Shown piece after piece: positions 1 through 9,491 of a stretch of DNA of 44,341 nt. Location of the stretch: NCBI RefSeq assembly GCF_000817785.2, contig NZ_JTCM02000053.1:1-44341 (forward strand). The letters run 5' to 3'. Numbering within the stretch: position 1 is the stretch's first letter; the number at the start of each line of letters is the position of its first letter. The notes under the pieces were generated by a model. The model worked only from the letters and a program-made list of their open reading frames with translations, had not been told where the DNA came from and did not search any database. The stretch is from Hassallia byssoidea VB512170 (GTDB taxonomy: Bacteria; Cyanobacteriota; Cyanobacteriia; Cyanobacteriales; Nostocaceae). The translations under genes and the position numbers were made by a program.

Positions 1-87
1 CGCCAGATGCTTCAACGCGGGAAACCCGACGGCAGTCGCTCATGGGGGTAACGAACATGACCGCGCTGCCTCCGCAACGCACTGGCT

Positions 88-135
88 CCCCTTGTCCCCT
101 TGTCCCCTTGTCCCCTTGTCCCCTTGTCCCCTTGT
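88..135. repeat. Octameric tandem repeat (CCCCTTGT)x6
   Basis: Six perfect head-to-tail copies of CCCCTTGT, followed by degenerate C-rich copies to about 155. Positions 1-87 look like a GC-rich dispersed palindromic repeat of the kind common between Nostocales genes. No gene is supported from 1 to 261; the frames open here are repeat-derived. Confidence 0.9.
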
Positions 136-261
136 CTCCCTGCCCCCCTGCCCCATTCCCTAGCCATTTTTCTAGGATGCATTCTCCCCATTTTTCCGAT
201 GTAACCTGTGAAAGCAAAACGGCAAGATATGAACATCACGAACGTTTAAAGGAGAAACTTT

Positions 262-1167
262 ATGTCTTCATTACTGGCTCTGTCCAACAATTTAGCCGAT
301 ATTGTAGAGCAGGTTGGGAGTGCTGTTGTTGCTGTCAACGCTGGCGGACGCATTTCTCCTAGCGGTATTCACTGGCGAGATGGTATCATCGTTACCTCTG
401 ACGAGTCGCTGCAACGCTATGAAGAAATTACTGTCACGACTACAGATAATCGCACAGTTGCAGCTAAAGTCTTAGGTCATGACTCCAGCACCGATGTAGC
501 TGTCTTGCAGCTACAAAACAAAGAAATCCCAGTGGCGAAAATTGGCGACGCTACCACGCTCAAAGTTGGTCATTTAGTACTTGGGTTAGCAAGAAGCAGT
601 GAGGGTGACTTAAAAGCGGCTATGGGTGCAGTGAGTGTTGTTAGTGGTGCTTGGCGAAGCATGAGCGGTGGTAATATTGACTCGTTCATCCGTCCAGACA
701 TCACTTTTTATCCTGGCTTTGCAGGTGGACCACTCGTAGATGCTGCTGGTTTCGTGGTAGGAATGAATACTTCCGGGCGACGCGGTACTGCTTTGACTAT
801 CCCCGCTTCTACAGTAAATCGTGTGGTTGACCAATTAATTGCCAAAGGACGCATTCCACGGGGCTATTTGGGTTTGGGGATGCAACCTGTACGTTTGCCT
901 GCAAATCTGAAAAGCGCCTTAAATTTAACTTCTGCTGGTGGGGTGATTGTCGTCAATGTTGAGACAAACGGACCTGCTGACAAAGCTGGTGTGTTGCTTG
1001 GGGATGTGTTGGTAGCCTTTGATGGTAATTCTGTTAGCGATACCGGTGATGTGCTGGCATTGCTTAATAATAGCGATCGCGTTGGTAAAACGGTTTCTCT
1101 GCAAATTCTACGCGGTGGAGTTTTGCTAGAGAAAGCGATCGCGATCGGCGAAAAACCAATTCAGTAA
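262..1167 (+). CDS. HtrA/DegP-like pseudoprotease with PDZ domain
   Basis: A 301-residue protein with a trypsin-like S1C fold (about 10-195) and a C-terminal PDZ domain (about 205-295, GYLGLG ... GVLLGDVLVAFDG). The catalytic Ser segment reads PGFAGGPL, so the nucleophile is Ala154, and the usual TNAHV reads VTSDES, so the His position is Glu48. Only the Asp (TDVAVL, D78) remains. It should therefore fold like an HtrA and bind peptides through the PDZ, but not cleave (inference). There is no signal peptide or membrane segment, so a cytoplasmic location is likely. AAAGGAG (248-254) fixes the start. The gene lies 34 bp upstream of an intact HtrA-like paralogue and a LuxR-type regulator, which suggests one operon in which the dead copy partners or regulates the live one. 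Family assignment is firm; the function is open. Confidence 0.9.
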   Translation: MSSLLALSNNLADIVEQVGSAVVAVNAGGRISPSGIHWRDGIIVTSDESLQRYEEITVTTTDNRTVAAKVLGHDSSTDVAVLQLQNKEIPVAKIGDATTLKVGHLVLGLARSSEGDLKAAMGAVSVVSGAWRSMSGGNIDSFIRPDITFYPGFAGGPLVDAAGFVVGMNTSGRRGTALTIPASTVNRVVDQLIAKGRIPRGYLGLGMQPVRLPANLKSALNLTSAGGVIVVNVETNGPADKAGVLLGDVLVAFDGNSVSDTGDVLALLNNSDRVGKTVSLQILRGGVLLEKAIAIGEKPIQ

Positions 1168-1201
1168 CAATTCCCACTTCAAAAATCACAACTTCCCCAA
1201 T

Positions 1202-2026
1202 ATGACTATCACAGCAATAACTGATGAATTAGCACTCCTAGCTGCTAAACTACGTAATATTACCGTCAAAGTGCGTAGCGGTTCTTTAGGAAGCGGTTCC
1301 GGTGTAATCTGGCAAAAAGACGGTTTAATCATCACTAACGCCCATGTCGCTACCAGCAACAAAACAACTGTCGAATTGTCAGATGGACGCACATTTGATG
1401 CCGTCCGGACACACTTCGATCCACAGCAAGATTTAGCAGCTTTGAAAATTGCCGCTACTGACTTAAATACCGCAACCATCGGCGATGCAGATGCGCTGCG
1501 TGTGGGTGAATTAGTCTTAGCAGTGGGTAATCCATTTGGTGACAGTGGTGCAGTCACAACCGGCATTATCCACACAAACGATCGGCGTTTGGTAATGGCA
1601 GATATTCAACTGTATCCTGGCAATTCTGGCGGTCCGCTTGCCGATTGTCTCGGTCGCGTTGTCGGAATTAATACCATGATTGCCAATGGGTTGGCTGTGG
1701 CAATATCAAGCTCAACTGTAAAGCGTTTTCTGAATGGAAATCGGCTTCATCTGGGGGTGACTTTACAACCTGTACTGGTAAAACGCAGCTTGGGCTTATT
1801 AATTTTGTCAGTGCATTCTCAAAGTGTTGCTGAAGCTGCTGGTTTGCAAGTTGGTGATGTGCTGATTGGGGTGTCGGGGCGATCGCTCTCTCAACCGAAT
1901 GATTTAAGCAACTATCTCAATCAAAGCGATAGCAAATCACTACCATTACAAGTTCTGCGTGGTGGACAACAATACATTTTTTATGCTGTGTTCCAAGATG
2001 GGAAAACTGCTGTGGAGGTGACATGA
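1202..2026 (+). CDS. HtrA-like S1C serine protease with PDZ domain (cytoplasmic)
   Basis: A 274-residue trypsin-like protease with a complete triad: His48 (TNAHV), Asp77 (QQDLAAL) and Ser142 (PGNSGGPL). A PDZ domain follows (about 180-265; AAGLQVGDVLIGVSG). Unlike the HhoA, HhoB and HtrA proteins of cyanobacteria it has no export signal, starts almost directly at the protease domain and is short. It follows a catalytically dead paralogue (gap 34 bp) and overlaps the next gene by 4 bp (ATGA), so the three are probably co-transcribed and the protease and regulator translationally coupled. There is no strong Shine-Dalgarno at this ATG. A likely role is regulated intracellular proteolysis or protein quality control; the substrate is unknown. 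Confidence 0.9.
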   Translation: MTITAITDELALLAAKLRNITVKVRSGSLGSGSGVIWQKDGLIITNAHVATSNKTTVELSDGRTFDAVRTHFDPQQDLAALKIAATDLNTATIGDADALRVGELVLAVGNPFGDSGAVTTGIIHTNDRRLVMADIQLYPGNSGGPLADCLGRVVGINTMIANGLAVAISSSTVKRFLNGNRLHLGVTLQPVLVKRSLGLLILSVHSQSVAEAAGLQVGDVLIGVSGRSLSQPNDLSNYLNQSDSKSLPLQVLRGGQQYIFYAVFQDGKTAVEVT

Positions 2027-2661
2027 TTCGGGTGATGGTAGTTGCAGCTTCCCCCGTAGTGAGGGCAGGTTTGTCAGCTGTGCTGACAAGCAATCCTCAA
2101 CTGACGGTAGTAGGTAGTGTATCTGACTTAGATGCACTTTTGGGGGAAGTGCAATTACAACCACAGGTGGTGCTGTTAGATTTGAGCGGTAATTTTCAAC
2201 AATCAGTATGGGAAAAATTGCTTTCGATGCAAGAAAAGCAATACTCATCACCAATTATGATTATTGCTGACGTTGACAGCATCAACTTAGAAGTAGCGCT
2301 GCGTTCTGGTGTACGGGGCATTTTACCAGATACCAGCACCGAGTCAGAGATTATCGCGGCTGTCGAGGCGATCGCTTTTGGTTTAATTGTCTTACACCCG
2401 GATGCGGTTGAGTTGCTTCCTCTCAAAGAGTCGATGCGAGAAAAAGTGACGCTTACACCCATGCAAACATTGACACCAAGAGAGATAGAGGTTTTAGAAA
2501 TGCTTGGTTCTGGGTTAGGAAATAAAGCGATCGCCAAGCGTTTGCATATCTCCGATCACACCGTTAAGTTTCATGTCTCATCCATATTTGGCAAGCTAGG
2601 GGTTTCGTCTCGCACTGAGGCTGTAACTGTTGGTGTCCGACTGGGTTTGATTATGCTTTAG
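2023..2661 (+). CDS. LuxR/NarL-family regulator with degenerate receiver domain
   Basis: A 212-residue protein with an N-terminal receiver-like domain (1-120) and a C-terminal LuxR-type helix-turn-helix (about 147-207; LTPREIEVLEML ... IAKRLHISDHTVKFH). The phospho-acceptor Asp53 (VVLLDLSG) is present. The paired acidic residues that normally hold Mg near residue 8 are Ala-Ala-Ser, and the conserved Lys near residue 103 (usually GYLLKD) is replaced in GILPDTS. Phosphotransfer signalling is therefore doubtful, and the receiver may respond to a partner protein instead (inference). It overlaps the HtrA-like protease gene by 4 bp. No histidine kinase is adjacent. DNA binding by the HTH is well supported; its targets, possibly including its own operon, cannot be told from sequence. 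Confidence 0.9.
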   Translation: MIRVMVVAASPVVRAGLSAVLTSNPQLTVVGSVSDLDALLGEVQLQPQVVLLDLSGNFQQSVWEKLLSMQEKQYSSPIMIIADVDSINLEVALRSGVRGILPDTSTESEIIAAVEAIAFGLIVLHPDAVELLPLKESMREKVTLTPMQTLTPREIEVLEMLGSGLGNKAIAKRLHISDHTVKFHVSSIFGKLGVSSRTEAVTVGVRLGLIML

Positions 2662-2984: not shown

Positions 2985-3752
2985 ATGTTTATCAAAAAAT
3001 TTGCTTCAATTGCTGCTTTATCTCTAACTGCGATCGCTTCCATCTCTTATGCCGGCTCGGCTCACGCTCTCGGATTTAGCTACAGTGCTGGTGCTTACCG
3101 TGATAGTGCAGTTACAACTGAAGGTGCTTTTGCTAAGGATGTAAACGACAAAGATTATACAACATATGATTTCAACGATGGTAAAGTACCTGGCAGCAAT
3201 AATGTAAAATACTCTTTTTCTAACGGTAGTTACTCTACTACGGCTTATTCTGGGCAAACTGGTATTTACTCAGATATGTGGGCACCTTCTGGTGCCAAGG
3301 CAGAAGTAAACACATCAAATTATTTAGCAGTTTTCCAGGGTAACAGTGTCATCATCGAAAACGCGAAAAATCAGGTTTTCAACTACTTTGCTTTTGATGC
3401 CGGAGCTTTGAGCGTAGGTAATACTTTACAATTCTTCAAAGGGACAAACCTCGTTAAAGGATTGACTTATGATATGATGAACGCGCTCGCACCTGTTTCA
3501 GCCTCGCAGCATGGTGGTCAAATGAATGGTGTCTTCGAGTTTTTCTCCGAAGGTATGAATGATAACTTTGATAAAATTGTGATTTCTCAGACCGCTGGCG
3601 GTGGCTTTGAATCTGACAACCACACATTCCGTACTGGTTCAGGCAAGTACTCTGCTAAAGTACCTGAGCCTGGTGTAGCTTTAGGATTGCTAGCTGTTTC
3701 TGGTGTCTTCCTTCGCAAGCGCAAAAATCAGAAGTCTCTCAACTTGGGATAA
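2985..3752 (+). CDS. PEP-CTERM sorting domain surface protein (copy 1)
   Basis: A 255-residue exported protein. The signal peptide (residues 1-28) ends in SAHA. A beta-rich secreted region follows, then a C-terminal PEP-CTERM tripartite tail: VPEPG, a hydrophobic helix and RKRKNQ. Such tails are processed by an exosortase on the way to the cell surface; none is encoded here. Just before the tail, the GGGFESDNHTFRT segment is shared with the paralogue at 4476. The coding start, signal peptide and last ~30 residues are nearly the same in both, while the middles differ, as in a diverging tandem duplication. A hairpin with a T-run follows at 3839. Probably an extracellular matrix or surface protein; the exact role is unknown. 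Confidence 0.9.
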   Translation: MFIKKFASIAALSLTAIASISYAGSAHALGFSYSAGAYRDSAVTTEGAFAKDVNDKDYTTYDFNDGKVPGSNNVKYSFSNGSYSTTAYSGQTGIYSDMWAPSGAKAEVNTSNYLAVFQGNSVIIENAKNQVFNYFAFDAGALSVGNTLQFFKGTNLVKGLTYDMMNALAPVSASQHGGQMNGVFEFFSEGMNDNFDKIVISQTAGGGFESDNHTFRTGSGKYSAKVPEPGVALGLLAVSGVFLRKRKNQKSLNLG

Positions 3753-4475: not shown

Positions 4476-5264
4476 ATGTTTATCAGGAAATTTGCTTCAA
4501 TTGCTGCTTTATCTTTAGGAGCGATCGCTTCCTTCTCCTACGCTGATGCTGCTCACGCTATGACCTTTACCATGAGCACAGGTACTACAGGTCCTAACGG
4601 AGAAACCAATCAAGGTGCGTATACCAAAGACAAAAACGCAATCACGATTGACTTCAACGATACCAAGAACGAAAAAGGCAAAACAGTACAAGGTAAAGCA
4701 CCAACTACTGGATTTGCTCAGTACTCATTTAGTAATGCAAATGGTCAGAAGCAAGTAGGAAGCAACTCTTGGGCACCAACTGGTCCAGATGGTGAGAAAA
4801 ACACTTCCAAGTATCTGCAAGTTATGGCTGGTAACTCAGTCACAATTACCCTAGAGAGTTTGGCAAAATCTTTCGGTTTAGACTGGGGTGCTGCTCACCC
4901 TGGTAATACTCTCTCTTTCTTCAATGGAAGCACCTTAATCAAAACCTTTATAACTGCGGACATAGGTAAGTTTGCTCTCTACTCCAAATTCCATCCCGGA
5001 CCCAAGGCAGATGGTGCGATAAAATTGGATGACGGAAAGTACTATCAAGGTAATGGTTACGTTGAGTTCTTTGCAGAGAACTCAAATGAATACTTCAACA
5101 AAATCGTGATTTCCCAACAAGCAAAATACGGTGGTGGATTTGAAAGCGATAACCACTCCTTCCGCACTGTACCTGAGCCTAGCCTTGCTTTAGGTATGCT
5201 GGCTATAGGTGGTGGTATGTTCCTCCGCAAACGCAAAAACCAAAAGTCTCTCAATTTGGGCTAA
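4476..5264 (+). CDS. PEP-CTERM sorting domain surface protein (copy 2)
   Basis: A 262-residue paralogue of the protein at 2985. The signal peptide (1-28, ending AAHA) differs at a few positions. The central region has the same order of motifs (SNSWAPTG, SKYLQVMAGNSV, GNTLSFF, EFFAENSNEYFNKIVIS), then GGGFESDNHSFRT and a PEP-CTERM tail: VPEPS, a hydrophobic helix and RKRKNQ. Because the motif order matches along the whole length, this is a full gene duplication rather than domain sharing. The middle is a little longer and richer in Lys, Asn and Gly. The ribosome-binding site is weaker than in copy 1, so the copies may be expressed at different levels (inference). The substrate or ligand is unknown. 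Confidence 0.9.
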   Translation: MFIRKFASIAALSLGAIASFSYADAAHAMTFTMSTGTTGPNGETNQGAYTKDKNAITIDFNDTKNEKGKTVQGKAPTTGFAQYSFSNANGQKQVGSNSWAPTGPDGEKNTSKYLQVMAGNSVTITLESLAKSFGLDWGAAHPGNTLSFFNGSTLIKTFITADIGKFALYSKFHPGPKADGAIKLDDGKYYQGNGYVEFFAENSNEYFNKIVISQQAKYGGGFESDNHSFRTVPEPSLALGMLAIGGGMFLRKRKNQKSLNLG

Positions 5265-5409: not shown

Positions 5410-7425
5410 TTATGACTTCACTGCTAAAGCTTGCCGATAGCAAGCAAACTCCATTGAGAAAGTTGCCATACCAGAGGTAAGCGATCGCAAGTCTGTTGAA
5501 TACCCAAACATCTTGGCTAATGGTACTTCAGCCCGAATCACTGTGTATGAAAGCATTGTTTCGGAACCCAATAGCAAACCCCGACGGGAGGATAAATCCC
5601 CCTGAACTCTTCCAAAAAACTCATTCGGAGTTTCCACTTCTACAAGCATAATTGGTTCTAAAATGCAAGGATTTGCTTTGATAAAAGCTTGTTCCAAAGC
5701 TTGATGCGCTGCTGACCGAAAAGCAATTTCACTTGAATCGATTGGGTGATATGAACCTCCTTCAAGAACGACTTTTACCCCAGTAACCGGATAGCCTTCT
5801 AGCTGTCCCGATTGCATCGCCTCTTGGAAACCTTTCTCACAAGCCAAGATGTACTCTTTGGGAATTGCACCCCCAACTACACGATTCTCAAATACAAACG
5901 GTTCGCTTGTCGGTGAAATCCACCCAGTAACGTGGGCAAATTGACCAGAACCACCTGTCTGTTTTTTGAGTCGGTAGTCGAAGGTAGCTTTTTGCAAGAT
6001 GGTTTCTCGATATGCTACCGCCGGTTTACTGACGTAAACTTCGGCATTATATTCTCGCTGGATGCGCTCAATGTAGATTTCTAGATGGAGTTCGCCCATC
6101 CCAGAAATCAGAGTAGCGCTAGATTCGGGGTCGTGAGTAACGCGGAAAGTGGGGTCTTCTTTTTGAAAGCGGTTGAGTGCTTTGGATAAGCGATCGCCCG
6201 ATTCCTGTTTTTTAGCCATAATCGATAGCGTAATCACTGGTTCCGGCACGAACATTCTTTCTAAAGATAGTAGTTTCCCTGAGCATAAGGTATCTCCGGA
6301 TGCACAATCTACACTCAACAGAGCAATAATATCCCCTGCCACAGCGACTTGCATCTCTTCTCGCTTGTTGGCGTGCATTCTTACTAGGCGATTGATTTGC
6401 ACTCGTTTCCCGGTACGCGAGTTGTATACAGTGTCACCCGGTTTCAGCGTTCCAGAGTAGATGCGGATGTATGTCAATTGCCCAAAGGATTCTACAGTTA
6501 GTTTGAATGCCAAAGCCACTAATGAATCATCAGGGTTAGGATAGATACTCACCGATTCTGCGGTTTTGACTAATTCCCTATCTATAGGTGATGGTAGATA
6601 AAGAGCGATCGCATCTAACAAGTTTTGCACACCCTTATTTTTGAATGCCGAACCCAGCAACACTGGAGTGAGTTCCAAGCTTAAAGTTGCTTTGCGGATA
6701 GTTTGCCAAATTAGTTCTTGAGAAACTTCCTCACCTTCTAGCAGCTGTTCGGTCATTGCTTCTGAAAACAGCGATAAAGCATCTAGCAGCTTTTCCCGTG
6801 CTTGTTGTGCTTCATCTACAAGCGCTGAGGGAATTGACTTTCTCACCCAATCTTCTCCGTTCTCACCTTGATAATAATGAGCCGTCATTTCCACAAGGTC
6901 AATCACCCCTTGAAAGTTATCTTCACTACCAATCGGATACTGTAGTAAGACAGCATTCAATTGCAACTTGTCTCGCATAGCTTGTACTACACGAAATGGG
7001 TCAGCACCAAGGCGATCCATCTTGTTGATGAATGCCAAACGCGGCACGCGATATCGCTTCATTTGCCGATCCACGGTGATGGATTGCGACTGCACACCCG
7101 CCACCGCACACAGCACCATTACAGAACCATCCAGCACCCGCAGAGAACGTTCTACTTCAATCGTGAAGTCTACGTGTCCTGGTGTGTCGATTAAGTTGAT
7201 TTGGGTATCATGCCATTGGCAAGTTGTCGCCGCTGAGGTGATGGTGATACCATGTTCTTTTTCTAAGTCCATGAAGTCCATTGTTGCGCCCTTTCCGCCT
7301 CCGCGCACTTCCTCAATTGCGTGGATTCTGCCCGTGTAGAAGAGAATTCGCTCTGATAACGTAGTTTTACCAGAATCAATGTGAGCAGATATACCAATAT
7401 TGCGGACGCGCGATCGGGGAATCAT
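5410..7425 (-). CDS. fusA: Elongation factor G paralogue (mitochondrial/spirochete EF-G1-like)
   Basis: A 671-residue translational GTPase with all G motifs: AHIDSGKT (14-21), GITITSAAT (G2), DTPGH (80-84), NKMD and GSA. Domains II, III ([20 protein letters not shown]), IV and V follow to the end. The wording of G1/G2 and the insert-free G domain resemble the mitochondrial EF-G1/spirochete EF-G group more than the str-operon EF-G. No rpsL, rpsG or tuf is nearby, so this is probably an extra copy used in a special step or condition. The ATG at 7425 is preferred because AAAGGAAG lies 9 nt upstream on the minus strand; the frame extends to 7464 without a better signal. It converges on the PEP-CTERM gene through a shared terminator. 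Confidence 0.9.
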
Positions 7426-8621: not shown

Positions 8622-9491
8622 TTATTGAATAGGTGTTCTGGCAATCAATTGGTTGGCTATCTGTTGCGCTTGATTGATGGGAATAGCAAATCCTAATCCT
8701 TGAGCGCCTTGAATTATAGCAGTATTGATGCCGATGACTTGTCCTTGTTGGTTTAAGAGTGGTCCGCCGGAATTACCTGGGTTAATGGCAGCATCGGTCT
8801 GAATAAAGTTAACTCGCCTACCTGCTGCGGAAATTATACCACCGGAGCGACCTGTGCCGCTAATAATGCCGACTGTAACGGTGTTGTCTAAACCTAAGGG
8901 ATTACCGATCGCGATCGCCCATTCTCCTGGTTTTAACTGATCGGAATTACCGATGCTGATAGCGGGTAAATTGTTAGCTTGGATTTTAACTACTGCGACG
9001 TCGGTTTGTCTATCTTGCCCCAAGACTCGACCGGTAAAGTTACGACCATCTTTTAAGGTAACTCTTACTGTGTCGGCTCCACCTAGAACGTGAGCGTTTG
9101 TCAGAATTAAACCGTTGGATCTAATGATGAAGCCGGAACCTGTTCCGCGTACCCGCCTTCCATAATTTGAATATCGACTTGCGATCGTTCTTGTTGAGTC
9201 TATCCGCACTACTGCTGAACCAGTTTTTTCGACAGCAGCGGCTATAAAGTTAGTATCTGTGTTGCTGATTGATGGCAATTGAGCGTAGACGCGGAGCGGT
9301 GAGGGGGTCGCAGTCTTGGCGGTTCCCGTCGATTGCGAACCCCCGAACCCGAAGGGCTTGTCGTCAGACATCGGCTGTTGAGATGGTACGGCGTTTGTGG
9401 GTACAATTTGTGCTGCGAATACTGCGGCTACTGCACCAAGAGAAACTAAAGACAAATTGCTGAGAGATTTTTTCAAAGATAAAGCAGACAT
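8622..9491 (-). CDS. Secreted HtrA/HhoA-type serine protease lacking a PDZ domain
   Basis: A 289-residue trypsin-like S1C protease. An N-terminal hydrophobic stretch (about 12-33, [20 protein letters not shown]) acts as a signal peptide or anchor. The triad is intact: His in LTNAHV, Asp in TDVAVVKI and Ser in NPGNSGGPL. It stops directly after the protease domain ([11 protein letters not shown]), where HhoA-type enzymes of about 390-400 residues continue into a PDZ domain. It is therefore either a PDZ-less form or a truncated gene. The linker at residues 42-72 is encoded by a GC-rich palindromic segment (about 9280-9370) resembling intergenic repeats, so it may be an in-frame repeat insertion. 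TAGGAA precedes the ATG. Inverted copies of a dispersed repeat flank the gene. It probably works in the periplasm or thylakoid lumen. Confidence 0.88.

Follow-up and report, generated by a model that had tools for sequence, protein, structure and literature searches.

Why should a cyanobacterium keep a protease-like protein that has lost its cutting residues in the same operon as a related protein that has kept them and a transcriptional regulator? This question is raised by three adjacent genes, here called P1, P2, and P3, at the start of a 44,341-nucleotide stretch of Hassallia byssoidea VB512170 (contig NZ_JTCM02000053.1; "the window" denotes this whole stretch). As detailed below, P1 and P3 go together across cyanobacteria whether or not P2 lies between them, and P1 is often, but not always, defective at its catalytic positions. 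The features of the operon and of the region upstream, listed by window coordinates, are the following.

160-176, + strand: first element copy, CTAGCCATTTTTCTAGG, with 0 mismatches in the window
184-201, + strand: second element copy, CTCCCCATTTTTCCGATG, a direct repeat of the first at an offset of 24 bases; conserved across the 47 loci aligned
223-228, + strand: −10-like hexamer CAAGAT, a putative promoter box, with the A at the second position and the T at the sixth invariant in 47 rows
262-1167, + strand: P1, 301 amino acids, HtrA-fold plus PDZ, with Glu48, Asp78, and Ala154 at the triad positions
1202-2026, + strand: P2, 274 amino acids, HtrA-type plus PDZ, with the triad His48-Asp77-Ser142; the optional member
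2023-2661, + strand: P3, 212 amino acids, LuxR regulator of the NarL/FixJ type whose receiver domain is degenerate

Both P1 and P2 score above the Pfam cut-off for PF13365 (Trypsin_2) and for PDZ, which is the trypsin-like plus PDZ architecture of HtrA/Deg (S1C) serine proteases, and the residues at their triad positions were assigned by aligning them with orthologues. Since the window P1 has Glu-Asp-Ala where these proteases have their triad, we file it as an HtrA-fold pseudoenzyme and not as a protease. Neither protein starts with a hydrophobic segment, the best 19-residue Kyte–Doolittle mean over the first 40 windows being 1.08 for P1 and 0.78 for P2, compared with 1.97 for another HtrA encoded at 8622-9491. 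The start of P3 lies inside P2, with a 4-base overlap (2023-2026). The first-pass annotation had described two adjacent HtrA-type proteins without signal peptides, both with PDZ, the first having lost the catalytic His and Ser and the second having a full triad, followed by a third gene overlapping the second by 4 bp, and this description was borne out throughout.

Gene order of the P1-P3 pair

How general is this arrangement? We sampled 145 genomes from the window's family (Nostocaceae), 148 from its order, 388 from its class, and 386 from its phylum, and P1 orthologues were found in 64/145, 13/148, 64/388, and 9/386 of them, respectively, the phylum search having used a single protein and fewer scored candidates. 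In the class, 65 genomes matched, of which G612 was dropped as having a P2b-type HtrA (see below), leaving 64. The phylum and class searches for P1, and those for P2b and P3 in the class, scored five to seven candidates per genome, and absences there are less sure. Named relatives bearing P1 include Spirirestis, Nostoc, Desmonostoc, and Scytonema. The row sets used hereafter (132 for P1, 97 for P2, 125 for P3, and 147 upstream regions) contain some genomes twice and some rows shortened by locus ends.

P1 was present in 135 cyanobacterial genomes, and the region downstream is readable in 130 of them; in the other five, two loci are cut and three have P2 but the place of P3 lies beyond the stretch. 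The gene order in the readable loci is P1-P2-P3 in 93, P1-P3 in 34, and P1-P3 followed by another HtrA in one (P1-P3-P2b, in G759), with two exceptions, namely P1 alone (G538) and P1 and the end of P3 joined in one short gene (G768). With or without P2, P3 lies downstream of P1 on the same strand in 128/130 loci, and the gene order that the first-pass annotation had proposed to look for in other cyanobacteria is thus conserved. Flanking genes are common to close relatives only, so the cassette behaves as a unit. The P3 search in the 388 class genomes gave a similar picture: of the 57 strongest matches (E ≤ 3e-49), 56 are in P1-bearing genomes and one is at a contig end (G776). The remaining 8 of the 64 P1-bearing class genomes are six with a weaker P3 beside P1 (E 1e-39 to 9e-48; G628, G673, G711, G731, G735, and G800), one with a cut contig (G583), and G768 with its joined gene. 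From these comparisons of sequence, we hold with very high confidence that P1 and P3 are the core of the cassette, a nearly obligate co-linear pair forming a conserved unit.

Some unusual alleles were noted along the way. In the G768 locus (L207), an open reading frame at 5903-6733, in the P1 orientation and 277 residues long, fuses the protease-like domain of P1 with the helix-turn-helix of P3, with no PDZ, P2, or receiver. This is either an allele with a deletion or a fault of the assembly. Interrupted-looking P3 genes stand beside P1 and P2 in L073 (3998-4627, split frame) and at G766:C131:35152-35745 (one TGA).

P2, which keeps H-D-S in 97/97 rows, is missing from 34 of the 130 readable loci, and at least 12 switches between its presence and absence are needed on the tree of P1 (60 scored rows). 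When 8 of the 34 P1-P3 genomes were searched, as well as G538, no P2 orthologue was found elsewhere in the genome: a true P2 scores E < 1e-117, and the best other HtrA in these nine genomes scores 5e-51 to 2e-58. Relics of P2 are seen between P1 and P3 in 4 of the 34 P1-P3 loci (G081, G011, G102, and G567).

Some genomes also encode P2b, another HtrA that lacks a signal peptide and has the full triad; its gene lies 3' of P3 in G759, elsewhere in the genome in G663 (L247:4525-5532), and as the divergent neighbor of P1 in G707. P2b was found in 17/31 genomes with P1 and no P2, in 4/33 with both, and in 0/10 without P1, and is hence commoner where P2 is missing (Fisher p 0.0004, kinship ignored). 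In the class sample, it occurs in 17/64 genomes with P1 vs. 12/324 without, kinship being again ignored.

The pair is not confined to cyanobacteria. At the protein level, a search through 72,556 plasmid records returned 7 matches at E ≤ 1e-30, 5 of which (Acinetobacter and Thermomicrobium) look like ordinary HtrA, with 35 to 36% identity. The other 2 are P1, with 42% identity, on megaplasmids of Paraburkholderia sprentiae (L333:5977-7569) and Paraburkholderia phymatum (L334). In P. sprentiae, a response-regulator gene comes next and there is no P2; with 330 bits for the P1 profile and 193 for the P3 profile, both genes score as their cyanobacterial counterparts do. The Paraburkholderia P1 has H-D-S and is 50% identical to its nearest cyanobacterial counterpart, and the recognition helix of P3 is nearly the same, while in P. 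phymatum the P1 and P3 frames are both interrupted. Given this P1-P3 pair in Paraburkholderia, a two-gene core probably moved between phyla without P2.

Catalytic residues of P1 and receiver of P3

If P1 and P3 are the constant members, which of their properties are kept? The triad positions in the 132 P1 rows are occupied by E-D-A in 69, H-D-S in 29, Y-D-L in 9, and other sets in the rest. Dereplication of 130 rows at 84% identity (without L207 and a further row, of ≤250 residues) left 63 representatives, in which H-D-S is intact in 22 and defective in 41. The first-pass annotation had counted intact-triad orthologues of P1 as a sign of a decayed duplicate, and such orthologues do exist. On a tree of the 63 representatives built with the catalytic columns excluded, there are at least 9 switches between the intact and defective states; many inner branches of this tree are weak, and 5 independent contrasts (pairs) lie on well-supported branches. 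It had also been asked whether the Glu and Ala substitutions are fixed across orthologues. This holds for Nostocaceae, where Glu48 is present in 62/62 rows and Ala154 in 60/62 (Val and Gly in the others), but not for other lineages with an intact H-D-S. E-D-A is also found in a distant lineage (L192 and relatives). In the 29 rows with H-D-S, the residue before the Ser is Phe in 27 and Gly in 2, and at this place P2 mostly has Asn (84/97).

Ranked by conservation among 295 P1 columns, the catalytic Ser comes 236th and the His 184th, and Asp78 is 27th. Invariant positions are G201, G204, and Q208 at the start of the PDZ and G247-D248. The dN/dS of P1 is 0.09 to 0.18 in 8 pairs, similar to that of P2 and P3. 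Judging by these ranks and ratios, selection keeps the fold and PDZ loop of P1, not its cutting site. We also considered a compensation scheme, in which the P1 triad would be kept where P2 is missing, and dropped it, since defective P1 occurs without P2 and informative independent pairs are too few.

P3 has the C-terminal LuxR/GerE helix-turn-helix of NarL/FixJ regulators (Pfam GerE, 74.5 bits for a cut-off of 23.5), with a sub-threshold match to sigma-70 region 4, and Response_reg remains below its gathering score. In its AlphaFold model (mean pLDDT 75), a receiver fold precedes the LuxR helix-turn-helix, the best structural matches being LiaR, VraR, ChrA, spr1814, and NarL. The receiver pocket is degenerate. 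Among 125 P3 rows, both acidic residues are present in 0, the acceptor Asp in 69 (the window P3 included), and the Lys in 3, and a complete pocket, as in phosphorylatable NarL/FixJ receivers, is found in 0/125. These counts support the view that P3 would be unable to use normal receiver chemistry, and they agree with the first-pass description of the LuxR regulator as atypical. The broader idea that went with it, a module of protease, pseudoprotease, and regulator, stands in that there is a conserved unit, with its gene order, purifying selection, and degenerate receiver, but P2 is not a necessary part of it and Glu/Ala is not universal; the sensing of misfolded or signal peptides that was suggested along with it is conjecture.

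The DNA element upstream of P1

Is there a site through which P3 might act? The region upstream of P1 contains an element, new with respect to the first-pass annotation, with the consensus CTAGCCATTTTTCYAGG-N7-CTnCCCATTTnTCYGATG, at a fixed spacing from the −10-like box. In the window, it reads CTAGCCATTTTTCTAGG-ATGCATT-CTCCCCATTTTTCCGATG (160-201), its two ends being 102 and 61 bases 5' of the start of P1. Across the 47 aligned loci (57 were listed, and the 10 left out are among the more divergent), the spacing of the two repeats and the box is constant, apart from a difference of one base in the gap between repeats, whereas the distance to the P1 start varies. The first repeat is found with ≤3 mismatches in 123 of 147 upstream regions, shuffled DNA giving about 7 mismatches, and the borders of conservation are sharp, with information near zero at both edges (59/62 representatives).

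A strong match to the element model (E ≤ 1e-5) is present at the P1 locus in 23/26 P1-bearing genomes, including 5 of the 8 that had contributed no rows to the model, and in 0/17 genomes without P1, where the best E is 0.009. The sole other strong full-length match is at P2b of G663; within each genome, there is next to no further occurrence of the element outside the operon. In G663 and in G759, both of which belong to f40 and lack P2, P2b has a copy of the element, box included, immediately 5' of it. At the Paraburkholderia loci, the model gave only non-significant matches. The genome of the window has 5 sites with ≤2 mismatches, one exact (at P1) and 4 others with 2, and 3 model matches at E ≤ 1, one of them strong. 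A wide regulon was considered and dropped in view of these few sites, a single one being exact and a single one strong, and of the one further site that was inspected, in L213, which looks like chance. In G763, two equal weak matches (E 0.0017) are found away from P1 and 1.15 kb apart, at G763:C1:2677177 and 2678328.

No base pairs are predicted in the element, and the window contains no Rfam match at the gathering threshold. In view of the lack of predicted pairs, we take the element to be a DNA site and not an RNA structure. In several orthologues, the second repeat contains TACCCAT, which fits the NarL heptamer TACYYMT, as given in PMC4886647. Furthermore, where the P3 recognition helix changes from SSIF to SAIF or SAIL (f42 lineages), the element is altered or unrecognizable. 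It is thus quite likely, by inference from these patterns, that P3, through binding to the element, controls the operon in which it is encoded. Because the end of the site falls near position −35, P3 would probably be an activator.

Other features were noted around the operon. Short tandem CCCCTTGT repeats occupy window positions 87-150, 5' of the promoter element. Directly 3' of the operon, at 2985-3752 and 4476-5264, two paralogues with PEP-CTERM tails stand in tandem, both belonging to the Npun_F0296 exosortase-dependent surface protein family. The further HtrA at 8622-9491 (− strand) has a hydrophobic N terminus and apparently no PDZ, and its best match, to the HhoA model, is confined to the protease part.

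Candidate mechanisms and related systems

What might such a pair do? The repeated loss of cutting beside a regulator with its own DNA switch suggests a sensor rather than an enzyme, and in our best reading P1 would be a peptide-sensing partner, not primarily a protease. We propose that P3 would bind the two direct repeats 5' of the −10-like box and control, and probably activate, its own operon. The PDZ and protease-like groove of P1 would bind exposed C termini or unfolded stretches of cytosolic proteins, and the loaded or free state of P1 would gate P3 via direct contact, replacing phosphorylation. As output, the level of P1 would rise, together with that of an active cytosolic HtrA in genomes that have one (P2, or P2b in some lineages), and this HtrA would remove the bound clients and close the loop. 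We see roughly even chances that P1 is the gating partner of P3, and it could equally well go either way whether the whole is a cytoplasmic self-regulating P1-P3 switch with P2 as an option. To the full proposal we give a probability of about 0.42. It holds that this is a new class of signaling unit, in which an HtrA-PDZ sensor independent of catalysis is coupled to a NarL-type regulator without phosphate uptake, which would be autoregulating and would have moved between phyla, the protease activity of P1 having been lost repeatedly because peptide binding is the signal.

Several observations weigh against this proposal. The 22/63 representatives with H-D-S mean that P1 may cut in some lineages, and the AlphaFold model of P1 has a mean pLDDT of 36, no conclusion here resting on it. 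G538 carries P1 and the element with no adjoining P3, and P3 in six f42/f40 genomes scores no or only slightly better than ordinary regulators; for those six the score gap is not clean, because regulators elsewhere in the genomes start at about 1.5e-44. Of the 26 P1-bearing genomes, 18 contributed rows to the element model, so that the matches in these 18 are there partly by construction, and 3 of the 26 (G601, G707, and G763) have no strong match. Several f42 and Paraburkholderia promoters match the element weakly or not at all. The covariation between helix and element comes from two clades and is imperfect, because L196 and L201 keep SSIF with poor elements, and activation, although more probable than repression, is read from the position of the site only. 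Lastly, the element precedes only 2/21 P2b genes (L249 and L250), the other 19 having none, and the idea that it is a general feature 5' of P2b was dropped.

Mam proteins act in magnetosome formation, and we know of no dedicated transcription factor associated with them. By analogy with MamO and MamE, the pseudoprotease P1 could assemble with or activate P2 or P2b, with P3 as a merely local regulator of expression, which we consider rather unlikely. According to PMC4794232, MamO is a degenerate HtrA that activates proteolysis by MamE, and copies without activity evolved separately in three taxa. On that account, both systems have an inactive HtrA encoded with an active one, repeated catalytic loss, and a selected noncatalytic role. 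P2 is also the gene between P1 and P3 in 93/130 loci, and P2b is commoner where P2 is missing (17/31 vs. 4/33), with the element shared in two of these genomes. However, a strict P2 requirement is spoken against by the 34/130 loci where P1 persists without P2. Moreover, 14/31 genomes with P1 and no P2 also lack P2b, though ordinary HtrA genes remain, and P1 and P3 are still coupled in operons without any intact triad (L095, L192, and L199). Unlike in the MamO/MamE system, P1 here has a LuxR regulator as its constant partner, and the cassette can dispense with the active protease. The scores of P1 (37.2 for MamO and 52.5 for MamE) and P2 (35.4 and 101) are far below the NCBIfam cut-off of 800.

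DegS, in the DegS-RseA-sigmaE pathway, is periplasmic, membrane-anchored, and catalytic, and it controls transcription in response to the C-terminal peptides that it senses. A comparable scheme, in which P1 and/or P2 would sense a peptide via PDZ and cut P3 or an inhibitor of P3, thereby altering transcription, could build on the established gating of HtrA-PDZ proteases by C-terminal peptides and on the H-D-S kept in 22/63 P1 representatives. We judge it unlikely. The His and Ser columns are among the more variable ones of P1 and operons with defective P1 and no P2 exist, so cleavage is not the shared mechanism, barring an enzyme acting in trans. The sensing P1-P3 unit that we favor would resemble DegS in using an HtrA-PDZ protein, C-terminal peptide sensing, and control of transcription, but it appears to be cytosolic, direct, and independent of catalysis.

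It is quite improbable that a different regulator binds the element and that P3 acts on other genes via unrelated sites. The regulon of P3 could extend to sites too weak to reach the model threshold, as strict filters lose weak matches. Nevertheless, the element is absent from the 17 genomes without P1, broadly tracks the P3 recognition helix, and has repeats resembling NarL heptamers. That P1 is a decayed HtrA duplicate beside an unrelated regulator, as its lost catalytic residues and intact-triad orthologues might have implied, we reject as scarcely credible, because a lack of conserved gene order is clearly not what is seen (128/130) and P1 has a dN/dS of 0.09 to 0.18 like P2 and P3, a conserved element, and an invariant PDZ loop.

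How does the proposed P1-P3 switch compare with other known systems? Cyanobacterial HhoA, HhoB, and HtrA, which are exported or membrane-linked, have the same fold and domain order, but P1 and P2 lack a signal peptide and score 144.5 and 147.9 bits, below the cut-off of 450 for the equivalog NF041521. NarL/FixJ-type response regulators with degenerate receivers are a known general class, and P3 has the same receiver fold, LuxR helix-turn-helix, and sites like NarL heptamers; it differs by the lack of the acidic pair in 125/125 rows and by its nearly obligate HtrA-fold partner. In HrcA-GroE and HspR-DnaK/CbpA, as presented in PMC6032397, a proteostasis protein and a regulator form an autoregulated loop, and clients are proposed to titrate the sensor. 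The P1-P3 cassette would likewise couple a regulator to a proteostasis protein in a loop under its own control, titration being a proposal here. HrcA and HspR are repressors of other folds that work with classical chaperones, in contrast to the HtrA-PDZ fold and NarL-type regulator of the present system. PMC7159879 describes other trypsin-like conflict systems. Full-text searches of a PMC collection, which leaves out most subscription papers, gave no description of the trio or of the P1-P3 pair. Each part is of a known kind, but to our knowledge no system has been described in which an HtrA pseudoenzyme is the fixed partner of a NarL-type regulator whose receiver is disabled, with a promoter element of their own.

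Noncatalytic roles of the HtrA fold rest on few cases, and the source of the signal for degenerate-receiver regulators is an open question; the P1-P3 family addresses both points in one cassette. It offers parallel triad losses beside intact orthologues, natural losses of P2, a near-obligate regulator, and a defined promoter site, and with it peptide binding in place of phosphorylation becomes a directly testable hypothesis.

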